Positions 11,680-21,496 of a stretch of 64,000 nucleotides of DNA are shown here, one piece after another. Made by a program: the position numbers and the translations under genes. The notes beneath the pieces were generated by a model. It was given only the letters and a program-made list of their open reading frames with translations. It did not search any database and was not told where the DNA came from. The DNA lies in contig JAGQSC010000019.1 in the NCBI GenBank assembly GCA_020439745.1, positions 62,001-126,000 on the forward strand, in the 5' to 3' direction. Within the stretch, counting starts at the first letter, position 1; each line of letters begins with the position of its first letter. The stretch comes from Acidobacteriota bacterium (GTDB lineage: Bacteria; Acidobacteriota; Holophagae; Acanthopleuribacterales; Acanthopleuribacteraceae).

Positions 11680-12297
11680 TTAATCCTTCTTGCTGGAGGC
11701 GGCTGCCAGGACACTTTCAAAACCATCTTTCTCGCGAGGTGGTAATCCGAAAAGGCGGCGGTCCTCAGGTGTTACCAGGAAGTTCTTATGCTCCATCATA
11801 TCGATCAAACGTTTCATACCAGAGACCGAGCCATAGCGTTCCTTGAATGAAGCTATTGCAAACTGACCTACCAGTTGCTCACTTCGCTTCACTTCTTCCT
11901 CTGTGAGAGGCATGGGTGCTTCGGCTATTTTCTGATACCGCTTGTGCCTTGCCAGGCGTTCCATGGCGTAACGCAGAATTTGGGGCATCTTGCGCTTGGA
12001 TGCGCGATACAGATCGTTACTTGAAACCTTTAGCGCGTTGTCCACCAAATCATCCCAATCGTCGGGAATCACCTGGTTGTCGCGACCAAGCCAAAAAAGT
12101 GCCGTCAATTCGGCTCGCTCTTCGACGGACAGTTCATCCAAAAACTGGTCATATGCTTTGATATTTGGGTCGTGAGCAAGCTGGGCCAACTGCTCCTCGC
12201 CAGGCATGGTCGCGTCTTGATCGCCAAAATCAAGGTGTTCACAGGCGCGAGCAAGTAGAATCAATGCCTGGACCGTCTGCTTTCGCAATGCTCTCAT
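11680..12297 (-). CDS. DUF3775-domain protein
   Basis: From the ATG at 12297 the protein is 205 residues (the frame is open to 12336). The middle carries the DUF3775 pattern: IKAYDQFLDELSVEERAEL followed by TALFWLGR and a later DDW. The C-terminal half is helical and charged (SEQLVGQFAIASFKERYG). It is soluble and intracellular; the function is unknown in the family. Confidence 0.7.
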   Translation of the reverse strand: MRALRKQTVQALILLARACEHLDFGDQDATMPGEEQLAQLAHDPNIKAYDQFLDELSVEERAELTALFWLGRDNQVIPDDWDDLVDNALKVSSNDLYRASKRKMPQILRYAMERLARHKRYQKIAEAPMPLTEEEVKRSEQLVGQFAIASFKERYGSVSGMKRLIDMMEHKNFLVTPEDRRLFGLPPREKDGFESVLAAASSKKD

Positions 12298-12378
12298 AGG
12301 GACCACGTGTTCAAGATTGTGACTGAATATTATCAAGAATCTTGTTCAAAGGACAATCACCCCATCACAAATCGCATC

Positions 12379-12616: not shown

Positions 12617-13900
12617 GTGATCATGGACTGGATCACATCGCCCATGTGGCCCCGCATTGCTGTGGGCTTCGCCTTTGCCGCGCTGGCAGCCTTCTTGATG
12701 GCAGCGATTCGTCAACGATCTCTGAGACTTGCAGCACAACGCCAACGCGATCATGATGAACGCCAAGTATGGCGGCTCCGACTGGATGCCGCAGCTGCAC
12801 TCCTGAAACGCAACGAGAGCAACACATATTCGTGGTCCGGATTTCGCAAGTTCACAGTTAGTGAACGCCACGAGGAATGTGCCGGCGTGGTCTCATTCAC
12901 CCTCCTGCCCCACGATCGCAGACCTCTGCCTTCATACTTGCCGGGTCAGTTTCTAACCTTCAAGATTAAGCACCAGCATCAAGTGATTCGCAGATGTTAT
13001 TCACTGTCCGATGCACCCGATTACCCGATAGGAAATCCCCGCACGAGTAGTATTCTCCAACAACCCTCTTATCGCGTGACCATCAAACGCATTGAAGGAC
13101 CGGAAGGTCCTGGAATCTGTTCAAACTACTTTCATGATCAGGTACAAGTTGGGACGATCCTGGATGTAGCAGCGCCTTCAGGATATTTCGTTTTGGACCC
13201 AGAGGACCCTCGCCCGGTGGTGTTTTTGGCTGCTGGCATCGGTGTAACTCCATTGTTTAGCATGGTCCGTAGCATCTGCAATTCTGGCAGGAGTCATCAA
13301 CGCGAAGTGTGGTTTTTTCTGGGTATTAGGGATCGTGAACACGGTGTTTTTAGAGAATCACTCGAACAGCTGGCCCATACCCACGATAATCTGAACCTCC
13401 ATATTTGTTACAGCCAGTTACCCATGGGTACCCCCATAGACCGACGGTTTGAACATCGAGGTCGCATTTCCATAGATTTGCTCAAACAACTCTTGCCGGC
13501 AAACAACTATTCGTACCTGATGTGCGGGCCCGAATCGATGATGACTGGCATGCGATCGGCACTGCGTGATTGGGGCGTTCCAGATGACGATATTCAGCAA
13601 GAAGTCTTTTCAGCCATTCGCCAACCCTTGCGAACGACCACCCCAACGGCAAAAGTCACATTCGCCAAATCGGATATGACATGTGTTTGGAATGCCGAGG
13701 AAGGTTCAATCCTTGACTTTGCGACCGCCCATGGAATTGTCATCGATTCAGGTTGCAGGGCAGGAAGCTGTGGCTCTTGCATGACCGCCATCCGGTCGGG
13801 CGAGGTTGACTACGTAAGCCACCCAGGGACATCGATTGAAGACGGAAGTTGTTTAACATGTATTGCTGTCCCAAAAACTGATTTGATCATTGATGCCTAG
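12617..13900 (+). CDS. Membrane-anchored flavin reductase with C-terminal 2Fe-2S ferredoxin
   Basis: The 427-residue protein has one N-terminal membrane segment (about residues 10-30), a flavodoxin-reductase-like FAD domain with RCYSLSDAP (flavin binding) near residue 126, an NAD(P) domain with LAAGIGVTPLFSMV near 202 and MCGPESMM near 302, and a plant-type 2Fe-2S ferredoxin domain with CRAGSCGSC near 386-394 and a last Cys about 28 residues later. The family moves electrons from NAD(P)H through flavin to the 2Fe-2S cluster and a partner. Start is GTG 12617 or ATG 12623. It is the first gene of the redox operon; the next starts 8 bp after its stop. Confidence 0.9.
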   Translation: MIMDWITSPMWPRIAVGFAFAALAAFLMAAIRQRSLRLAAQRQRDHDERQVWRLRLDAAAALLKRNESNTYSWSGFRKFTVSERHEECAGVVSFTLLPHDRRPLPSYLPGQFLTFKIKHQHQVIRRCYSLSDAPDYPIGNPRTSSILQQPSYRVTIKRIEGPEGPGICSNYFHDQVQVGTILDVAAPSGYFVLDPEDPRPVVFLAAGIGVTPLFSMVRSICNSGRSHQREVWFFLGIRDREHGVFRESLEQLAHTHDNLNLHICYSQLPMGTPIDRRFEHRGRISIDLLKQLLPANNYSYLMCGPESMMTGMRSALRDWGVPDDDIQQEVFSAIRQPLRTTTPTAKVTFAKSDMTCVWNAEEGSILDFATAHGIVIDSGCRAGSCGSCMTAIRSGEVDYVSHPGTSIEDGSCLTCIAVPKTDLIIDA

Positions 13901-13908
13901 GAGGAAGC

Positions 13909-14892
13909 ATGATTCGCATTCTATTGATATGTGTCATCGCAACATGGGTCCAAGCCCAGCATATGGATCCTGAGCTCACCGTCGGACCAGACCAGTGCGG
14001 TGAATGCCACAAAAATGAATTGGCTGTTTGGAAAGAAACCAAGCATCATAAGAGCTTCTTTGACATCACTCGGTCAGAAGAGGGGCGCCAAATTGCCCAG
14101 AAAATGGGTATCAAGCGAATCAAACGCGAAAGTGACTGTCTTAACTGCCATTTCACCTCCATCCCTGAAAACGATGCCATTGTTCCCGTAGCTGGGATAT
14201 CCTGCGAATCGTGCCACGGACCTGCCAAGAACTGGATCGACGTTCACAATGATTATGGCGGCAAGGACATGAAAAAGGAGGACGAGTCGCCTGATCACAG
14301 GGTGAAACGACTGGCGGATGCAATTGCAGGTGGTATGTTGCGACCCGACAACTTGTATCTGGTAGCCGAAAACTGCTTTCAGTGCCACACAGTCCCCAAT
14401 GAACGGTTAGTCAACGAAGGGGGTCACACGGCAGGAAGTGCGTTCGAATTGGTCTCTTGGTCACAAGGCGAAATTCGCCATAACTTCCTTCGCAGCGATA
14501 CAGGCGATCAGAACATGGAGGCCAGTGCCAATCGCAAACGCATGATGTTCATCCTGGGCCAAGTTTTAGATCTCGAGTACAGCTTGCGGGGCACCGCATT
14601 GGCCACGGCCAAAGCTGAATACGCCGTATCCATGGCCAAACGCTCAAAATTGGCAGGTTTGAGGTTAAAGAAAATTCAGGAAACGCAGCCTGTGGCCCAA
14701 GTGCAAAAGATCATTGAACTTGCAGATAGCGTTGAACTCAAGCTGAACAACGCTGATGCACTAAATAGGGTGGCTGATCAGATAAGCGAACTCGGCCAGG
14801 AATTGGCACGCAGCTACGACGGCAGCGCATTTTCCGCCCTGGACGCTCTGTTACCTGACCCATCTACTTACAAGGGATCACCGGCCCTTTAA
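13909..14892 (+). CDS. Secreted tetraheme cytochrome c (c554-like)
   Basis: The 327-residue protein has a signal peptide (about 18 residues) and four CXXCH haem sites: CGECH, CLNCH, CESCH and CFQCH in the first 165 residues. The spacing and the segment ISCESCHGPAKNW match the cytochrome c554 family. The last 130 residues are a long helical region without haems. It should be a periplasmic electron carrier. A strong AGGAGG lies just before the ATG, right after the stop of the flavin reductase gene. Confidence 0.92.
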   Translation: MIRILLICVIATWVQAQHMDPELTVGPDQCGECHKNELAVWKETKHHKSFFDITRSEEGRQIAQKMGIKRIKRESDCLNCHFTSIPENDAIVPVAGISCESCHGPAKNWIDVHNDYGGKDMKKEDESPDHRVKRLADAIAGGMLRPDNLYLVAENCFQCHTVPNERLVNEGGHTAGSAFELVSWSQGEIRHNFLRSDTGDQNMEASANRKRMMFILGQVLDLEYSLRGTALATAKAEYAVSMAKRSKLAGLRLKKIQETQPVAQVQKIIELADSVELKLNNADALNRVADQISELGQELARSYDGSAFSALDALLPDPSTYKGSPAL

Positions 14893-14902
14893 TTGAGGCG
14901 AC

Positions 14903-16636
14903 GTGCTGAATCTAGGCCCTGACAACAATCTTGAATTTTCACTTTATGGCAATGCGCTGGACAGGCGCATGCAAGAAAAGGACGTCAACCGTATTTTGGA
15001 GATGGCTCCTTTCTCCAAGATCGATGCCTCCAAATTTCCGGCGTCTAAATCCCTCCAAGAGCTCCTTGAGCAGGATGCACGACTTGTCACCTTCATGCCA
15101 GGCGATATTATCGTTCGAAGGGGAGACTACGGAACGTCTGCGTTTTTCATTCTACGAGGATGCGTGCGCGTGGTTACCAGCCCCGAGATCGAGGACGCTG
15201 CGTTAGGGCACACGCCCACGCCAAAGCGGACCCATTGGCAGGCATTCAAACAACTATGGACCAACCACCACGAGCCTGAGTATCGGCCTCCTTTCAAAGG
15301 GTCGACCGGTCACTTGCAAACCCAAACACGTTTAGCAAGTGATACCCAAGAGGTTAGAGCCTACTTGTCCGACCCCAAATCTGTGATCGAGCGCTATGCG
15401 ACCATTCCGATCCAAGCAGGTGAATTTTTTGGGGAAATTGCCGCCTTGACTCGCACGCCGAGAACGGCCACGATCTTCGCCGAAAACGTGTGCCAAATGA
15501 TCGAGATACGGTGGCAAGGTTTGCGAGATTTACGTCGGTTCTCCACAGAGTTCCGCCAGGAAATTGACCAGATTTATCGTGAGCGAAGCCTGAAGACGCA
15601 CCTCGCTGAATCCAGTCTGTTCAAGCATCTCGATGTGCACCAACTCGGTCAATTGGTTGACGCAACCGAATTTGAAAGCTACGGAGATTTCGATTGGTAT
15701 CCTGAGTTCCGCCGCACCGATGCAGCGCGCCACGGCCAGCAAATCGCCAAGGAACCGCTCATCGCTCAGGAAGGTGACTACATTAACGACCTGTTGCTGA
15801 TCAGGGCGGGATTCGCGCGTCAGAGCATCCAAATCAACGAAGGTCACCGGACTATCGGCTACTTGGGAAGCGGCGATGCGTTCGGGTTAGAAGAGTTGAT
15901 TCAATCAACGCAAACAGGTCGCGCTATTGCATTGAAGCATTCTCTTCGCGCCGTGGGTTACGTCAACCTGCTTCGGGTTCCTGCCGACTTGATCCAAGAG
16001 TTGGTACTCCCGCGATTGCCAAGCCGATTCCATCCACCCAAAGTGCCTGACCTCCAGACAACCAGTCAAGCCTTTGACTACGTAGAGAGTCCCGACCGAA
16101 TGGATGAGGGATTGTTGAATTTCATAGTAGGTGGTCGACACAACAATGGGACCGCGACCATGCTCATCCACCTCAATCGCTGTACAGGTTGCGACGACTG
16201 CGTGCGAGCCTGTAGCCGGGCACATGACGGAAATCCCAGATTTGTTCGGCAGGGACCAAGGCATCAGCATCTAATGGTGGCTTCAGCCTGCATGCATTGT
16301 GTCGATCCCGTCTGCATGTTAGGTTGCCCAACCGGCGCCATTCACCGCAAGGAAATCACGGGTGACGTAGATATCAACCCAAAAACATGCATCGGTTGTT
16401 CGAACTGTGCCAATAACTGTCCTTACGACAACATACGTATGGTTGAAGTAACCGATGCCCACGGTGAACCGCATTTTGACTTAGACACCGAGCGACCTCG
16501 CCTGCAGGCCACAAAATGCGACCTCTGCTCGGATCAAGTAACCGGCCCTGCCTGTCAATACGCCTGTCCTCACGATGCTTTGAAACGTATCGATATGCGT
16601 CAGACACAGTCTTTCAAGAACTGGCTTCAACCATGA
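14903..16636 (+). CDS. Double cyclic-nucleotide-binding protein with four 4Fe-4S motifs
   Basis: The 577-residue soluble protein has two cNMP-binding-like domains. The first includes MPGDIIVRRGDYGTSAFFIL near residues 66-85 and FFGEIAALTRTPRTAT near 175-190; the second includes GDAFGLEELI near 323. A DmsB/NrfC-type iron-sulfur domain follows with four cysteine clusters (CTGCDDCVRAC; CMHCVDPVCMLGC; CIGCSNCANNC; CDLCSDQV...CQYAC) at about residues 428-560. The combination implies electron transfer gated by ligand binding, which is an inference. The start is GTG 14903 with GAGGCG upstream. Its stop overlaps the next start (ATGA). Confidence 0.9.
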   Translation: MLNLGPDNNLEFSLYGNALDRRMQEKDVNRILEMAPFSKIDASKFPASKSLQELLEQDARLVTFMPGDIIVRRGDYGTSAFFILRGCVRVVTSPEIEDAALGHTPTPKRTHWQAFKQLWTNHHEPEYRPPFKGSTGHLQTQTRLASDTQEVRAYLSDPKSVIERYATIPIQAGEFFGEIAALTRTPRTATIFAENVCQMIEIRWQGLRDLRRFSTEFRQEIDQIYRERSLKTHLAESSLFKHLDVHQLGQLVDATEFESYGDFDWYPEFRRTDAARHGQQIAKEPLIAQEGDYINDLLLIRAGFARQSIQINEGHRTIGYLGSGDAFGLEELIQSTQTGRAIALKHSLRAVGYVNLLRVPADLIQELVLPRLPSRFHPPKVPDLQTTSQAFDYVESPDRMDEGLLNFIVGGRHNNGTATMLIHLNRCTGCDDCVRACSRAHDGNPRFVRQGPRHQHLMVASACMHCVDPVCMLGCPTGAIHRKEITGDVDINPKTCIGCSNCANNCPYDNIRMVEVTDAHGEPHFDLDTERPRLQATKCDLCSDQVTGPACQYACPHDALKRIDMRQTQSFKNWLQP

Positions 16637-17430
16637 ACAAGGCCCTTTTCGCGCTTTTTTGTTTGTTGTTGTCCTGGTGGTGGTGGCTTTCACTTGAGAG
16701 AATCGGGCCTGTTGCCAGCTTAACAGGTTGGACATTAACGGGCTGTACCTTATTTCTGGCGGCGTATCAGCTTCGCAAATGGCTCTCGATTTTACCTTTA
16801 GGTTCTGCACAACAGTGGATGCAACTTCATGTGTGGATCAGCTTCATGGCTGCATTTATATTTTTTTGGCATACGGGGTTGCGCCTCCCGGACGGCTTGT
16901 TTGAATGGGCGCTATACAGCTGTTTCGCAGCAACTTGGATGTCGGGATGTCTGGGCTGGATTGTCACAACAACCATGCCCCGTCGATTAGCGCGACACGG
17001 TGACGTCATCATTGCCGATGAAATTCCAGTGATCAGGCGTCAACTTCAATTGGCCGCGGACCAACTGGCCTTGGATTCCGTGTCGGATACGGGTTCCACA
17101 ACTTTGGCGGAGTTCTACCAACGCCGACTTGCTTCGTTCTTTGGGAAGCAAACCCATCGATGGGTACACCTGACAGGAAGCAGACGGGTACATGCGTGGC
17201 TCGATCAAGAATTTGCCCAGATTCAGCGGTTCATGGCTGAACCTGAGTGGAAGAACTTGAATCAACTCCGTGAATTGGCGTTTGCCAAGATCAATACAGA
17301 TGTTCAGGGTGCAGGCACCTGGCTTCTCCGACGATGGCTATTTGTTCACATTCCATTGACCCACGCCCTAATTGTCTTGATTGGGTTTCATATCTTTTGG
17401 GTGTACCTCTTCAACGCGGGGTCAATCTAA
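16633..17430 (+). CDS. Diheme b-type cytochrome-like membrane protein
   Basis: From ATG 16633 (overlapping the upstream stop, which decides the start) the protein is 265 residues. It has about four membrane segments in the first 115 residues and one at the C-terminus. Histidines H66 and H80 in one helix, and H239 and H253 in the last, are each 14 residues apart, the spacing that in b-type cytochromes places two haems across the membrane. The middle (residues 120-230) is a cytoplasmic helical part. The role inferred is to pass electrons across the membrane between the 4Fe-4S protein and the cytochromes c. It ends in TAATG with the next gene. Confidence 0.8.
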   Translation: MNKALFALFCLLLSWWWWLSLERIGPVASLTGWTLTGCTLFLAAYQLRKWLSILPLGSAQQWMQLHVWISFMAAFIFFWHTGLRLPDGLFEWALYSCFAATWMSGCLGWIVTTTMPRRLARHGDVIIADEIPVIRRQLQLAADQLALDSVSDTGSTTLAEFYQRRLASFFGKQTHRWVHLTGSRRVHAWLDQEFAQIQRFMAEPEWKNLNQLRELAFAKINTDVQGAGTWLLRRWLFVHIPLTHALIVLIGFHIFWVYLFNAGSI

Positions 17431-19376
17431 TGAATCCGTCATTCCGCCACCAGGACAGCCCCTACGACAGACCGGACCGAAATTGGGTGTGTGGCCGCCT
17501 CGCCCAGGGAGAGCCGTGTTCCAGGGGACCAACCCATCAGGGTCAATGCAAGGCTGGTCCGATGTGCAAGCCATCCATGAAGGGGTATCGTTTTATCTGT
17601 ACAAGAACCGTCGCATTCGGAGGGGCATGCGATAGTGGTCCATTCCCGGACGGGAGATGTTCGGTTCATGAGTCGTCTTGTCAACCCGTACGTTCTGAGC
17701 GATCTGTGCGCCGTCAGATCACCGGGTATTTTGTGATCACTGTATTCGGGTTGGTATTAGCCGGGTTTGTATTTGGATTTGGCCGTCAATGGGTGTCCCC
17801 GGGACGCTTGAGCTCCGCCCATGGGTTCATCGACAATCAATGTGCCAGTTGTCATCCCGCGCTGGTTGAGGGTTTTGCGGGTGTCCTGCGCCACGCAGGA
17901 TCGGGTCACATGAATGATCAATGCCTCGCATGCCATGACCGAGGGGTGGCTCCTACATTCGCCCATGGTTTAGCCGATGCTAAGGGTCGTAAACTCGATT
18001 GCGTACAGTGCCACAGAGAACATCGCGGATCAGAATTGCCTGAGGTCGCAAGAACCGCTTGCCAGGCTTGTCATAACCGTCACGTTGCCAATTTGCGGCA
18101 GCATCCTGAGTTCGCCGACTACCCAGCTTCCCCTCGTGTGCTGGCATTTGACCATTCAAGCCATGCCAACAAGCATTTCCCCGAGCAAAAGCAGACATTC
18201 ACCTGTGGAGGGTGTCACCAGGTGACCCCGCAGGGCAGTGTAACCATCGCCACATTTGAGGAAAGCTGCCGCAATTGCCACCTAGCAGATGTGCGTTTAA
18301 ACACTACAGCAGGTGAGGCGGGTGTTCTGGTGTGGGCCATACCCGGAATTGACCTGGAGACTTTGGAAGCCCATGGCTATTTTGTGGGTGACTGGCCCAC
18401 TTTTTCAGACCATCCACTCACGCCATTCGTTCGGGCTTATCTGCCTCAGGAGCGAGCTGAAGATTTGGCCGTGTGGGACCAACTAGATGTGCTGGATCTG
18501 GAGTCGGCCGACAAGCAGCAATTGGCGGCGGTACAGCGTGTCGCCATCGCCGTCAAGGTTTTCTTTGCCGAAACGGCAAGGTCCGGCCAAAGTACCTTGG
18601 GCGACGAACATGAAAATGGACGTCTCTTCGCTGGAATGGATCAAGCCACTTGGACATCAGCCTTGACCACATGGTTTCCACAGATGGATGATGAATGGGC
18701 ATTGATTCAATCCAACCAACCGTTGCCCACACACAGAGAACCAGCACCAAAGCCCATGAGCAAAGAAAAAAAAGCAGATAGTGGAGGGGATGATTTACTC
18801 ACAGATGACCTGCTGGGTGACGACCTTCTCTCTGGTGATTTGTTGGTGGGAGAGGTTCAGGACGATGACTTGTTTGGCAAGAAAACAACCCCGAACGAAA
18901 ACATAACCGTGGAGGGCTCTGCATGGGTCAGTTTTGGAGGTTGGTACCAGAATGGTGAAGGCCTTTACTATCGACCAGGTGATCATCCCGACGGATTCCT
19001 ATCCGCCTGGTCCACAAGGCTCGAACTGGATGTTTTTGACAAGATCCTGTCAGCAGGTTGCGACAAGTGTCACCTCCCTCAAGAAAAAGGACCCCGCTTT
19101 AGAGCCCCTTATTCAGGGGGTAGCCATGGTGTATTCACTGTGTTCGATCATGCTGCCCACGTCGCCATCATGAAGTGCGATGCTTGTCACGAAGCTGTCA
19201 CCGACCGTGCTCCCGGCAAGTCATCCTTTGCAGCCATGAAACTCGATTCATGTCGTATTTGTCACGGTGCCCAAGATGTCACCGACGACTGCATGAGTTG
19301 TCACAATTACCACGTCACGACTGAGACCGGATCCACTGGTAGTACAACAGCGATAGCATCACCAAAAAGACCATGA
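17430..19376 (+). CDS. Decaheme cytochrome c with N-terminal Cys-rich domain
   Basis: From ATG 17430 the protein is 648 residues. It has a cysteine-rich N-terminal domain (eight Cys in about 70 residues), a membrane segment near residues 98-118, and a periplasmic part with ten CXXCH sites: six between residues 135 and 300 (CASCH, CLACH, CVQCH, CQACH, CGGCH, CRNCH) and four near the end (CDKCH, CDACH, CRICH, CMSCH). An acidic repeat of DDLL units lies between them. It is the likely terminal or storage member of the redox operon. The start is set by overlap with the previous stop. The 3' end overlaps the convergent small membrane protein gene. Confidence 0.88.
   Translation: MNPSFRHQDSPYDRPDRNWVCGRLAQGEPCSRGPTHQGQCKAGPMCKPSMKGYRFICTRTVAFGGACDSGPFPDGRCSVHESSCQPVRSERSVRRQITGYFVITVFGLVLAGFVFGFGRQWVSPGRLSSAHGFIDNQCASCHPALVEGFAGVLRHAGSGHMNDQCLACHDRGVAPTFAHGLADAKGRKLDCVQCHREHRGSELPEVARTACQACHNRHVANLRQHPEFADYPASPRVLAFDHSSHANKHFPEQKQTFTCGGCHQVTPQGSVTIATFEESCRNCHLADVRLNTTAGEAGVLVWAIPGIDLETLEAHGYFVGDWPTFSDHPLTPFVRAYLPQERAEDLAVWDQLDVLDLESADKQQLAAVQRVAIAVKVFFAETARSGQSTLGDEHENGRLFAGMDQATWTSALTTWFPQMDDEWALIQSNQPLPTHREPAPKPMSKEKKADSGGDDLLTDDLLGDDLLSGDLLVGEVQDDDLFGKKTTPNENITVEGSAWVSFGGWYQNGEGLYYRPGDHPDGFLSAWSTRLELDVFDKILSAGCDKCHLPQEKGPRFRAPYSGGSHGVFTVFDHAAHVAIMKCDACHEAVTDRAPGKSSFAAMKLDSCRICHGAQDVTDDCMSCHNYHVTTETGSTGSTTAIASPKRP
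18789..18878 (+). repeat. DDLL-type low-complexity repeat inside the decaheme cytochrome
   Basis: About 30 codons encode repeated D-D/G-L-L units with T, G or S spacers and end in DDDLFG. The stretch separates the two haem clusters. The codons differ between units, so it is a protein repeat and not a recent DNA duplication. Confidence 0.8.
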
Positions 19377-19671
19377 ATGCCAATCCAAGAGCCGTGAATA
19401 CCAATGAAGGGTGACGCCAAAAACCGATACTGTATTGAGATTCCACCCAGTCACAATGCCGTGCCATCAAACGAGTGATTTCTTCCGTGTTCGTGGACTC
19501 GAGGCACGCCAGTTCGGTCTCAAAAACAGTTGCCCTTTCAACGTCTATTTCAGTCAGATGCTCCAAAAAAAGATGCACCCATGGCCCAGATTCACCACTT
19601 GCCCGACCCGATTGCATCCGAACAACGATTTCCCTAAGCGCCCTAATTGGCATTCTTTTGCGCGATTCCAT
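19315..19671 (-). CDS. Small membrane protein downstream of a LytTR regulator
   Basis: From ATG 19671 (TGATG overlap with the response regulator stop) it is 118 residues: a charged helical N-terminal part and one membrane segment near the C-terminus (VFTALGLAFMVFLVMLSLLYY) followed by a short basic tail. It looks like a tail-anchored accessory of the two-component pair. No family is recognised. It overlaps the end of the cytochrome gene by 62 bp in convergent orientation. Confidence 0.6.
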   Translation of the reverse strand: MESRKRMPIRALREIVVRMQSGRASGESGPWVHLFLEHLTEIDVERATVFETELACLESTNTEEITRLMARHCDWVESQYSIGFWRHPSLVFTALGLAFMVFLVMLSLLYYQWIRSQS

Positions 19672-20414
19672 CAGGCACCCATCCACTGTTTGAATTCCGA
19701 CGCGCGTTCTTGTGACACCAGGATCTGTTCATCAGAATCGGGTTTCAGTTCCACCCACAGACGACCTCTATCAAAAGGCCCAAAGCGATAGATGGATTGA
19801 ACATGGGCCAGATAAGCGCGATTCAATCGAAAAAAGGATCTGCTTGGGAGCTGATGCTCCAGTTCCTTCAAGTTCCGATCGCACAGGTACTTTCGACCGT
19901 CTAAGTCTGTGAGGAACGTCAATTTGTGGTCGGACTGCAAATAGGCAACTTGATCCATGGGAATCGACAGAAATGCAGCGCCCTTGCGCACGAGGATCCG
20001 CTGTTTTTCGCCAATTCGACGGTCGGACACAAACGAAGCCAACCGTTGGTTGAAATGCCCTTTGAATCGACGTACTTTCTCGATCGCAAGAGCCACATCC
20101 TGTTCCTTGATGGGTTTCAGCAAGTATTCGATCCCGTTGTTGTGAAATGCCTCTAGCATATAGGTATCGTAGGCTGTGGTGAAGATGACGGGACAATGTA
20201 ATGTCACCAATTCAAAAAGACCGAACACTTCGCCGTCACTCAGTTGAATATCCATAAAGACCAAGTCAGGCTCGGGGTGCGTGCCGAACCAATCGACGGC
20301 TTCCTGGACCGATGTCAACTGCGCTAATACATCCACAACGGGAAGGTTCCGCCTGAGCAGGTTCACCAATCTACGAGCCGCCGGCAATTCGTCTTCCAAT
20401 AGAACCACGTTCAC
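19671..20414 (-). CDS. LytTR-family response regulator
   Basis: The 247-residue regulator has a receiver domain with the acidic pair E7/D8, phosphoacceptor D55 (VFMDIQLSDG), conserved T (FTTAYD) and K (LLKPIKE), then a LytTR DNA-binding domain (residues 140-245; LVRKGAAFLSIPMDQVAYL, FFRLNRAYLAHVQSI). The start GTG overlaps the kinase stop (GTGA), so the two are a coupled pair. Its targets are unknown; the adjacent redox operon is convergent, so control of it is not implied by position. Confidence 0.93.
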   Translation of the reverse strand: MNVVLLEDELPAARRLVNLLRRNLPVVDVLAQLTSVQEAVDWFGTHPEPDLVFMDIQLSDGEVFGLFELVTLHCPVIFTTAYDTYMLEAFHNNGIEYLLKPIKEQDVALAIEKVRRFKGHFNQRLASFVSDRRIGEKQRILVRKGAAFLSIPMDQVAYLQSDHKLTFLTDLDGRKYLCDRNLKELEHQLPSRSFFRLNRAYLAHVQSIYRFGPFDRGRLWVELKPDSDEQILVSQERASEFKQWMGA

Positions 20415-21496
20415 GAGGCTAGCCTCATCAGTGGTATCTCCACGGAAAAGCGCTCGTCGTCCACGACAGTGATGCCTCGCCCAGTTAGGATAAGAGCTCG
20501 TTCATTGAGATTCTTCAAGCCGATCCCGGTACCGACCCCCTCGTCACGTTTTGGGAACTTGGCGTGATCGACCACAAGGTGTTCAGATTCAATCCGGCAT
20601 TCGAGTAGCAATGGTGATCGTTCATTGAACTGGTTATGTTTCACAGCGTTTTCCACCAGCACCTGCAGAGAAATGGGCATAATTAACAGTTGATCGGTTT
20701 CTATATCCGGCAATTTCATCACAAGTCCATCACCAAATCGAATGCGCAACAGCGCCAAATACGATCGAACAAAGCGCAACTCATCATTGAGCGGTACCCA
20801 CGATCGATTGTGGCTGGCCAGAATGTAGCGGTAGACATCCGCTAGGTGCTCTGTAAATGCTTGCGCCTGATGGGTTTGTTCATCGATCAATTGTGAAAGC
20901 GTGTTAAGGCTGTTGAACACGAAATGGGGATCTAACTGGTTTTTGAGAGCCATTAATTCGGCCTCGACCTGCATCCGGTGCAATCTTTCCAATCGCAGTA
21001 AATCGTTTTCTCGCTGCTTGATGAGATAAACGGTTTCATACACATGAGTCACAAACATGACGCAGATGACGTTGATCAGACATACCACTTCAATAGTTGT
21101 CCAATTGACCTCCACGTTCACAAATCGGTACCACGCCCACAAAACGATGACCGTGATGGGAGCCGTGAAAAAGACATTGGCAAAAACCAGCAGAACCAGT
21201 TTGCGAGTAGCGTGACGAAACCAGTCATAAAAAATGCGCTGTTTGATTAGAAACCATCTGTTCCCGTGCCAGATAAGAAAGGACAACGACAGGAACAGCA
21301 GATATCCCATCCAGTATTGCCCTGAAAATAAGAGTACACCGTGGAAGAGGTCCGTTGCATTTGGGATCAAAATTCCAAACGCAGGGATCACCAGAAGACG
21401 AATCAATCCGTCATTCAGTTCCGTTTCACGGAGCGAATTCAGGTCGGCCATATTCGCGTTCGGACCGTTCATATTCGTCTTCGTCGTTTCGTTCAT
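20411..21496 (-). CDS. LytS/YehU-type sensor histidine kinase
   Basis: The 361-residue kinase has four hydrophobic segments in the first 165 residues and a short coiled coil. A His_kinase domain of the LytS type follows (LDPHFVFNSLNTLSQLID with the phosphorylated His near residue 195) with an ATPase domain (VENAVKHNQF N-box and GTGIGLKNL G-box). It lacks an obvious extracellular sensor domain, so it may sense something in the membrane. It is divergent from the DUF1761 gene. Confidence 0.92.
   Translation of the reverse strand: MNETTKTNMNGPNANMADLNSLRETELNDGLIRLLVIPAFGILIPNATDLFHGVLLFSGQYWMGYLLFLSLSFLIWHGNRWFLIKQRIFYDWFRHATRKLVLLVFANVFFTAPITVIVLWAWYRFVNVEVNWTTIEVVCLINVICVMFVTHVYETVYLIKQRENDLLRLERLHRMQVEAELMALKNQLDPHFVFNSLNTLSQLIDEQTHQAQAFTEHLADVYRYILASHNRSWVPLNDELRFVRSYLALLRIRFGDGLVMKLPDIETDQLLIMPISLQVLVENAVKHNQFNERSPLLLECRIESEHLVVDHAKFPKRDEGVGTGIGLKNLNERALILTGRGITVVDDERFSVEIPLMRLAS

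Follow-up and report, generated by a model that had tools for sequence, protein, structure and literature searches.

Five adjoining genes in the window (the whole stretch of DNA that was analysed, 64 000 nucleotides) combine a flavin reductase, an Fe–S protein with nucleotide-binding (CNB) domains, a membrane protein and two multihaem cytochromes, and they raise the question of which electron-transfer complex they encode and what part a cyclic nucleotide might play in it. The window belongs to a draft genome of 5.1 Mb in 65 contigs, estimated as 97% complete, the nearest named relative of which in the searched collection is the Holophagae MAG OFTM365. All five ORFs (g1–g5; Table 1) are present where an earlier sequence-only reading had placed them, in an operon-like tight run with gaps of 8 bp (g1/g2) and 10 bp (g2/g3) and overlaps of ATGA at g3/g4 and TAATG at g4/g5; the ORFs, Pfam matches and CXXCH counts agree with the domains that it had assigned and with its junctions of at most 10 bp. 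Pfam places g3 in the cNMP_binding and Fer4 dicluster families and g5 in Cytochrome_C7. The NCBIfam labels flavohaemoprotein, DmsB, HybA, NrfC and others were rejected, all being far under the curated cut-offs, and promoter and terminator scans gave sites no commoner than in shuffled sequence. A DUF3775 protein of unknown function (window 11680–12336, − strand) is divergent from g1. A group convergent to the operon (window 19315–21496, − strand) comprises a 123 aa ORF, which overlaps the 3′ end of g5, a LytTR response regulator and a LytS-type histidine kinase.

Table 1. Positions of the five genes and of the first nucleotide-binding cassette in the window.
Feature	Position	Strand	Assignment
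g1	12617..13900	+	Membrane-anchored NAD(P)H:[2Fe-2S] flavin reductase, FNR-like; NAD_binding_1 and Fer2 (Pfam), TM 13–31
g2	13909..14892	+	Periplasmic tetrahaem cytochrome, c554 family; Cytochrome_C554 (Pfam), four CXXCH
g3	14903..16636	+	Cytosolic Fe–S subunit; tandem CNB, then C-terminal Fer4 dicluster-type domain, four Cys groups
CNB1 phosphate-binding cassette FGEIAALTRTPRTAT	15428..15472	+	g3 residues 176–190; intact, conservation counted in 83 homologues
g4	16633..17430	+	Predicted five-helix di-haem b membrane subunit; two WX3HX13H and SGXXG (PCC4 'IMP')
g5	17430..19376	+	TM-anchored decahaem cytochrome c, ten CXXCH; eight-Cys cytosolic N-terminal domain

Two membrane features had been missed by that reading. 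The N-terminal helix of g1 is one of them; the 2Fe–2S cysteines of this protein (C380/C385/C388/C415) are invariant across 65 homologues. The other is in g5, which has a single TM helix with eight conserved cysteines on its cytosolic side. These cysteines (residues 1–97, window 17430–17720) are kept in 37–40 of 42 homologues, and the region, which matches no Pfam family, is a candidate metal or Fe–S site that could take electrons from g3. No match to g4 was found in Pfam, NCBIfam or PDB sequences. The two histidine pairs with a spacing of 14 residues that had been noticed in g4 are indeed present (H66/H80 and H239/H253) and are 99–100% conserved in 79 homologues; as candidate ligands, the four histidines would bind two b haems.

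The gene order was sought in other genomes using g3 as the query against 84 980 species genomes. We took the best 80 loci, in which the presence of CNB domains is partly by construction and the neighbours are unselected. Among these, the cassette spans eight or more groups at the level of phylum or class, with carriers in Planctomycetota, Verrucomicrobiota, Alpha-, Beta- and Gammaproteobacteria, Nitrospinota, SAR324 and Myxococcota. In each of the 65 loci with enough flank, g4 and g5 come immediately after g3, so the operon is conserved far beyond chance and a chance neighbourhood is ruled out. Where enough upstream flank was available, g2 precedes g3 in 43 of 66 loci and g1 lies upstream in 49 of 66; in 13 of the 17 loci without g1 just upstream it sits at another place in the locus or in the opposite orientation. 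The haem counts of four (g2) and ten (g5) are nearly constant among the loci, and g3 and g4 are naturally fused into one polypeptide in L072 (Oceanospirillum sediminis) and L074.

About 20 of the best 80 loci also contain, adjoining the cassette, a secreted five-haem cytochrome (c6) and a protein of about 490 aa (c5). The structure predicted for c5, taken from the family member in locus L012 and not from the window genome's own c5, is a β-barrel of about 20 strands (pLDDT 79), for which Foldseek gives chitoporin, OprD-family porins, MOMP and AlgE as the nearest solved folds. From their position beside the cassette in relatives, both proteins were predicted to occur in the window genome, and both were then found there as single matches (E 2.9e-244 for c6 and 3.2e-115 for c5), adjacent to each other on contig C51, with the cassette on contig C63. 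The genome of a sister species (G001) has one c5 and one c6, which are also adjacent and are split from the cassette in the same way; this recurrence argues against a binning error. In G003 and G004, from the same family as the window genome, the pair is joined to the cassette. Of 247 Acidobacteriota genomes, six have the porin, 12 have g3 and five have both (hypergeometric P 6e-7, kinship ignored); the five genomes with both represent five families, and the porin is below the cut-off used in 7 of the 12 that carry g3. One Acidobacteriota genome (L120, G275:C73:147872-149335) has the c5 porin and no detectable g3.

Several observations concern the surroundings of these outer parts. In the window genome a CRP-family regulator and a ScdA/hemerythrin protein adjoin the porin/pentahaem pair (L102:8590-10138), and these neighbours suggest nitrosative or redox stress control. 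DDLL repeats are present in g5 (window 18780–18900) and in 10 of 21 c6 cytochromes, where they sit at the N-termini (L008, L011, L012, L052, L055, L072 and L074), and in 15 of 605 ORFs of more than 400 aa overall; they may be a linker or docking motif common to these proteins. In the Verrucomicrobial cassettes L024, L040, L045, L059, L063, L067, L068 and L069, c5 and c6 are replaced by other neighbours, which include a large multihaem LVIVD-repeat cytochrome, a possible barrel of about 810 aa and a trihaem c554 protein that is divergent. The inner-membrane module may in these cases be paired with another kind of outer-membrane half.

The tentative name PCC4 was given in 2017, from sequence evidence only, to a porin–cytochrome system with these components (He et al., 2017; PMC5566968). 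Putative PCC4 comprises a porin, three multihaem cytochromes (MHCs; 4, 5 and 10 haems) and an inner-membrane protein (IMP) with five TM helices, SGXXG and two WX3HX13H motifs; in subgroup II a pfam13247 Fe–S gene lies upstream of the IMP gene, and in Oceanospirillum beijerinckii the two are annotated as one gene (PMC5566968). The reported hosts are Zeta-, Gamma- and Alphaproteobacteria and Planctomycetes, a list from which Acidobacteriota are absent (PMC5566968). In the window, g4 fits the IMP definition (WMQLHVWISFMAAFIFFWH, SGCLG and WLFVHIPLTHALIVLIGFH), its five TM helices having been read from the model of a homologous fusion; the full IMP motif is present in 67 of 79 g4 homologues and both His pairs in all 79. 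The g3 protein matches PF13247 at 1.1e-9, above the cut-off, and its gene overlaps the start of g4, which places the Fe–S gene upstream of the IMP gene. Since g3 and g4 agree with the published definitions, the five genes are, on comparison with that description, best filed as the putative inner-membrane half of PCC4 subgroup II, with the outer-membrane half unlinked. The haem set of 4, 5 and 10 is complete, with the tetrahaem and decahaem proteins in the window and the pentahaem protein on contig C51 together with the porin c5, and a redox gene stands upstream of the tetrahaem gene as in PCC4 (g1, 8 bp before g2). In O. sediminis (L072) the PCC4 components occur in order, with a fusion like that reported for O. 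beijerinckii. The likeness to subgroup II thus covers the porin, the three MHCs, the IMP motifs, the pfam13247 gene, the upstream redox gene and the Oceanospirillum fusion. It differs in its Acidobacteriota host and in layout: the single cluster that is typical of PCC4, though not strictly defining, is divided here between C63 (cassette) and C51 (porin and pentahaem protein).

The sequence-only reading had known of no named complex with this set and had itself held that an already named complex would refute it; the match to the tentative PCC4 makes that statement wrong in substance. Our literature search for cNMP, Fe–S and multihaem components in combination turned up no named complex of this kind, and one paper mentioning PCC4 was found in the open-access literature after 2017. 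The words 'cyclic' and 'cNMP' are absent from the main text of He et al., where a cyclase is likewise unmentioned (PMC5566968). The complex is known in outline, and the proposed cyclic-nucleotide switch is its new, testable part.

PCC3, which is found in Gallionellaceae (PMC10734462), also has an IMP with five TM helices and two HX13H motifs, and the PCC3 and PCC4 IMPs are not homologous overall (PMC5566968). The porin and multihaem cytochromes are further shared features, but PCC3 has very large periplasmic (21–27 haem) and extracellular MHCs; the window has no large MHC, and PCC3 membership was ruled out. MtrCAB, MtoAB and PioAB resemble the present system in that an inner-membrane electron module feeds a porin–multihaem conduit. 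They differ in that c5 has about 20 strands in the model and is OprD/AlgE-like, and in that the inner module here is a five-part NAD(P)H/Fe–S/b/c chain and not CymA.

Computation gives the gene set, its conserved order, the cofactor motifs, the conserved b-haem ligands, the outer parts with their family fold, the intact CNB1 motif and the cyclase linkage in relatives; the assembly of the products into a complex, the direction of flow, the substrate, the ligand and the gating are inferred. The products are probably a PCC4-type conduit from NAD(P)H and quinone to the cell surface, with a cyclic-nucleotide switch on the Fe–S subunit, a reading that we hold with fair but not strong confidence from the sequences. 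Electrons would move between NAD(P)H and the periplasm through g1 (FAD and 2Fe–2S), g3 (four 4Fe–4S) and g4 (two b haems), then to the g5 decahaem and the g2 tetrahaem cytochromes, and from g2 through the c6 pentahaem cytochrome, seated in the c5 outer-membrane porin, to an extracellular partner. Quinone exchange by the IMP has been argued from the HX13H motif (PMC5566968), and g4 would probably also exchange electrons with the quinone pool; flow is possibly reversible. A cyclic mononucleotide on CNB1 of g3 would allosterically open or close the step into the membrane. The sequence-only reading had already suggested a chain leading from NAD(P)H to periplasmic haems; by way of 2Fe–2S, 4Fe–4S and b haems, this chain fits the topology, conservation, g3–g4 fusions and gene order. 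Electron entry bears on this chain in a further way. No g1 was found in genomes G003 and G004 at E 1e-20, and in G003 (L105:14534-17811) g5 is followed by FHA proteins, among them a fusion of Pyr_redox_2, FHA and Fer2 that is non-homologous to g1. This unrelated flavoprotein with the same cofactors supports cytosolic entry from NAD(P)H to 2Fe–2S. It also hints at phosphorylation as the alternative means of control in the G003 form, which agrees with the change in the CNB1 cassette of that form.

The nucleotide-binding part rests on CNB1. Examined for a phosphate-binding cassette of Gly-Glu plus Arg, CNB1 passes and CNB2 fails; CNB2 keeps the G and E, has lost the cassette and is degenerate. 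Thus, of the two g3 domains in which cNMP pocket residues had been thought worth seeking, one retains its cassette and the other has lost the standard ligand motif, a further point that the sequence-only reading had missed. In the CNB1 homologues G177 is conserved in 83/83, E178 in 82/83, A181 in 83/83 and R187 in 77/83, and the pattern FGE..A....PR is largely kept across many phyla at about 45% overall identity. The stretch FGEIAALTRTPRTAT, which we take to be co-linear with the PKA phosphate-binding cassette, has FGE and PR equally spaced. Residue 188 is Thr in 62 of 83 homologues; a Thr at this position in PKG and CNG channels favours cGMP, and Thr188 may be read as a hint, and a hint only, of that ligand. 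Because the CNB2 motif is lost and the CNB1 Arg is replaced in the distant form of G003 and G004, nucleotide binding is not universal. The tandem CNB model, taken from a g3–g4 fusion, matches PKA-R and PKG, with low TM-scores that reflect a match to just a part of the fusion and a different orientation of the domains; the Fe–S domain of this model is of low confidence and too uncertain for reading distances. The PKA regulatory subunit and PKG share with g3 the tandem CNB fold and the co-linear cassette, whereas the effector in g3 is an Fe–S electron carrier rather than a kinase, CNB2 lacks the cassette and CNB1 has a large insertion.

A possible source of the ligand is a neighbouring class III nucleotidyl cyclase (family c7; PF00211), present in 16 of the best 80 loci, with one further weak match. 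It is divergent from g1 in 11 of the 13 planctomycete loci that have g1 and upstream sequence, and the gap to g1 measures 112–240 bp in nine of these; in one the two genes apparently overlap, and in another the start of g1 is unclear. Those 13 genomes hold only 1–6 PF00211 cyclases each, so chance linkage is very unlikely (the loci share ancestry). A cyclase also lies within a few kilobases in SAR324, Rhodospirillaceae, Omnitrophota and Akkermansiaceae loci. It is not beside the operon in L007 and L039, and the window genome has four PF00211 cyclases, none beside the operon.

The gating by a nucleotide signal proposed in the sequence-only reading is plausible, and the conserved CNB1 cassette and the adjacent cyclase in 11 of 13 planctomycete loci lend it independent support. 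Its specific form, in which a dedicated class III cyclase would make cAMP or cGMP and binding to CNB1 would switch PCC4 flow between NAD(P)H and the surface post-translationally, is tentative, with a chance that we put a little short of even. The conduit might instead be the same with CNB domains that are structural or that sense redox, haem or another ligand in an FNR/CooA-like manner, the cyclase acting on transcription via CRP. The loss of the cassette in CNB2 and of the CNB1 Arg in G003/G004 favours this, as do the lack of an adjacent cyclase in most non-planctomycete loci and the CRP-family gene next to the porin/pentahaem pair; on the other hand, this alternative sits poorly with the retention of the G, E, A and R of CNB1 in 77–83 of 83 homologues across phyla at about 45% identity and with the retention of the divergent cyclase. 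We consider it doubtful, with an appreciable chance of being right.

The direction of flow allows a further alternative, an inward conduit in which extracellular Fe(II) or Mn(II) would feed quinone and NAD(P)+ in lithotrophy or reverse electron transport. He et al. modelled PCC4 in this direction, to quinone, from its occurrence in Fe(II) oxidisers and their habitats (PMC5566968). Reduction of NAD(P)+ by Fe(II) costs energy, however, and no coupling module was seen. Homologues do occur in Nitrospinota, Nitrosomonadales and SAR324, which are lithotroph-rich groups, but the cassette is also common in Verrucomicrobiota and Planctomycetota, which are mostly heterotrophs, and we regard an inward conduit as unlikely. 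Quite improbable is a periplasmic respiratory or detoxifying reductase, in which g2 or c6 would reduce a soluble substrate, such as an oxyanion of nitrogen or sulfur, that the barrel only admits: g2 and c6 are indeed members of the c554 superfamily, c5 looks like the substrate-specific porins of the OprD family and has no MtrB among its best matches, and the ScdA/hemerythrin protein and CRP regulator adjoin c5/c6, but no catalytic family exceeds its curated cut-off and a conserved association between a barrel and multihaem proteins is what conduits typically show.

The loci found here show PCC4 to be wider than reported; the system would take up electrons from NAD(P)H through a flavin on the cytosolic side and may be switched by a second messenger. 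In bacteria the known role of cyclic mononucleotides is mainly that of signals for transcription, and an electron-export chain under the direct allosteric control of cAMP or cGMP, if true, would for that reason be unusual.
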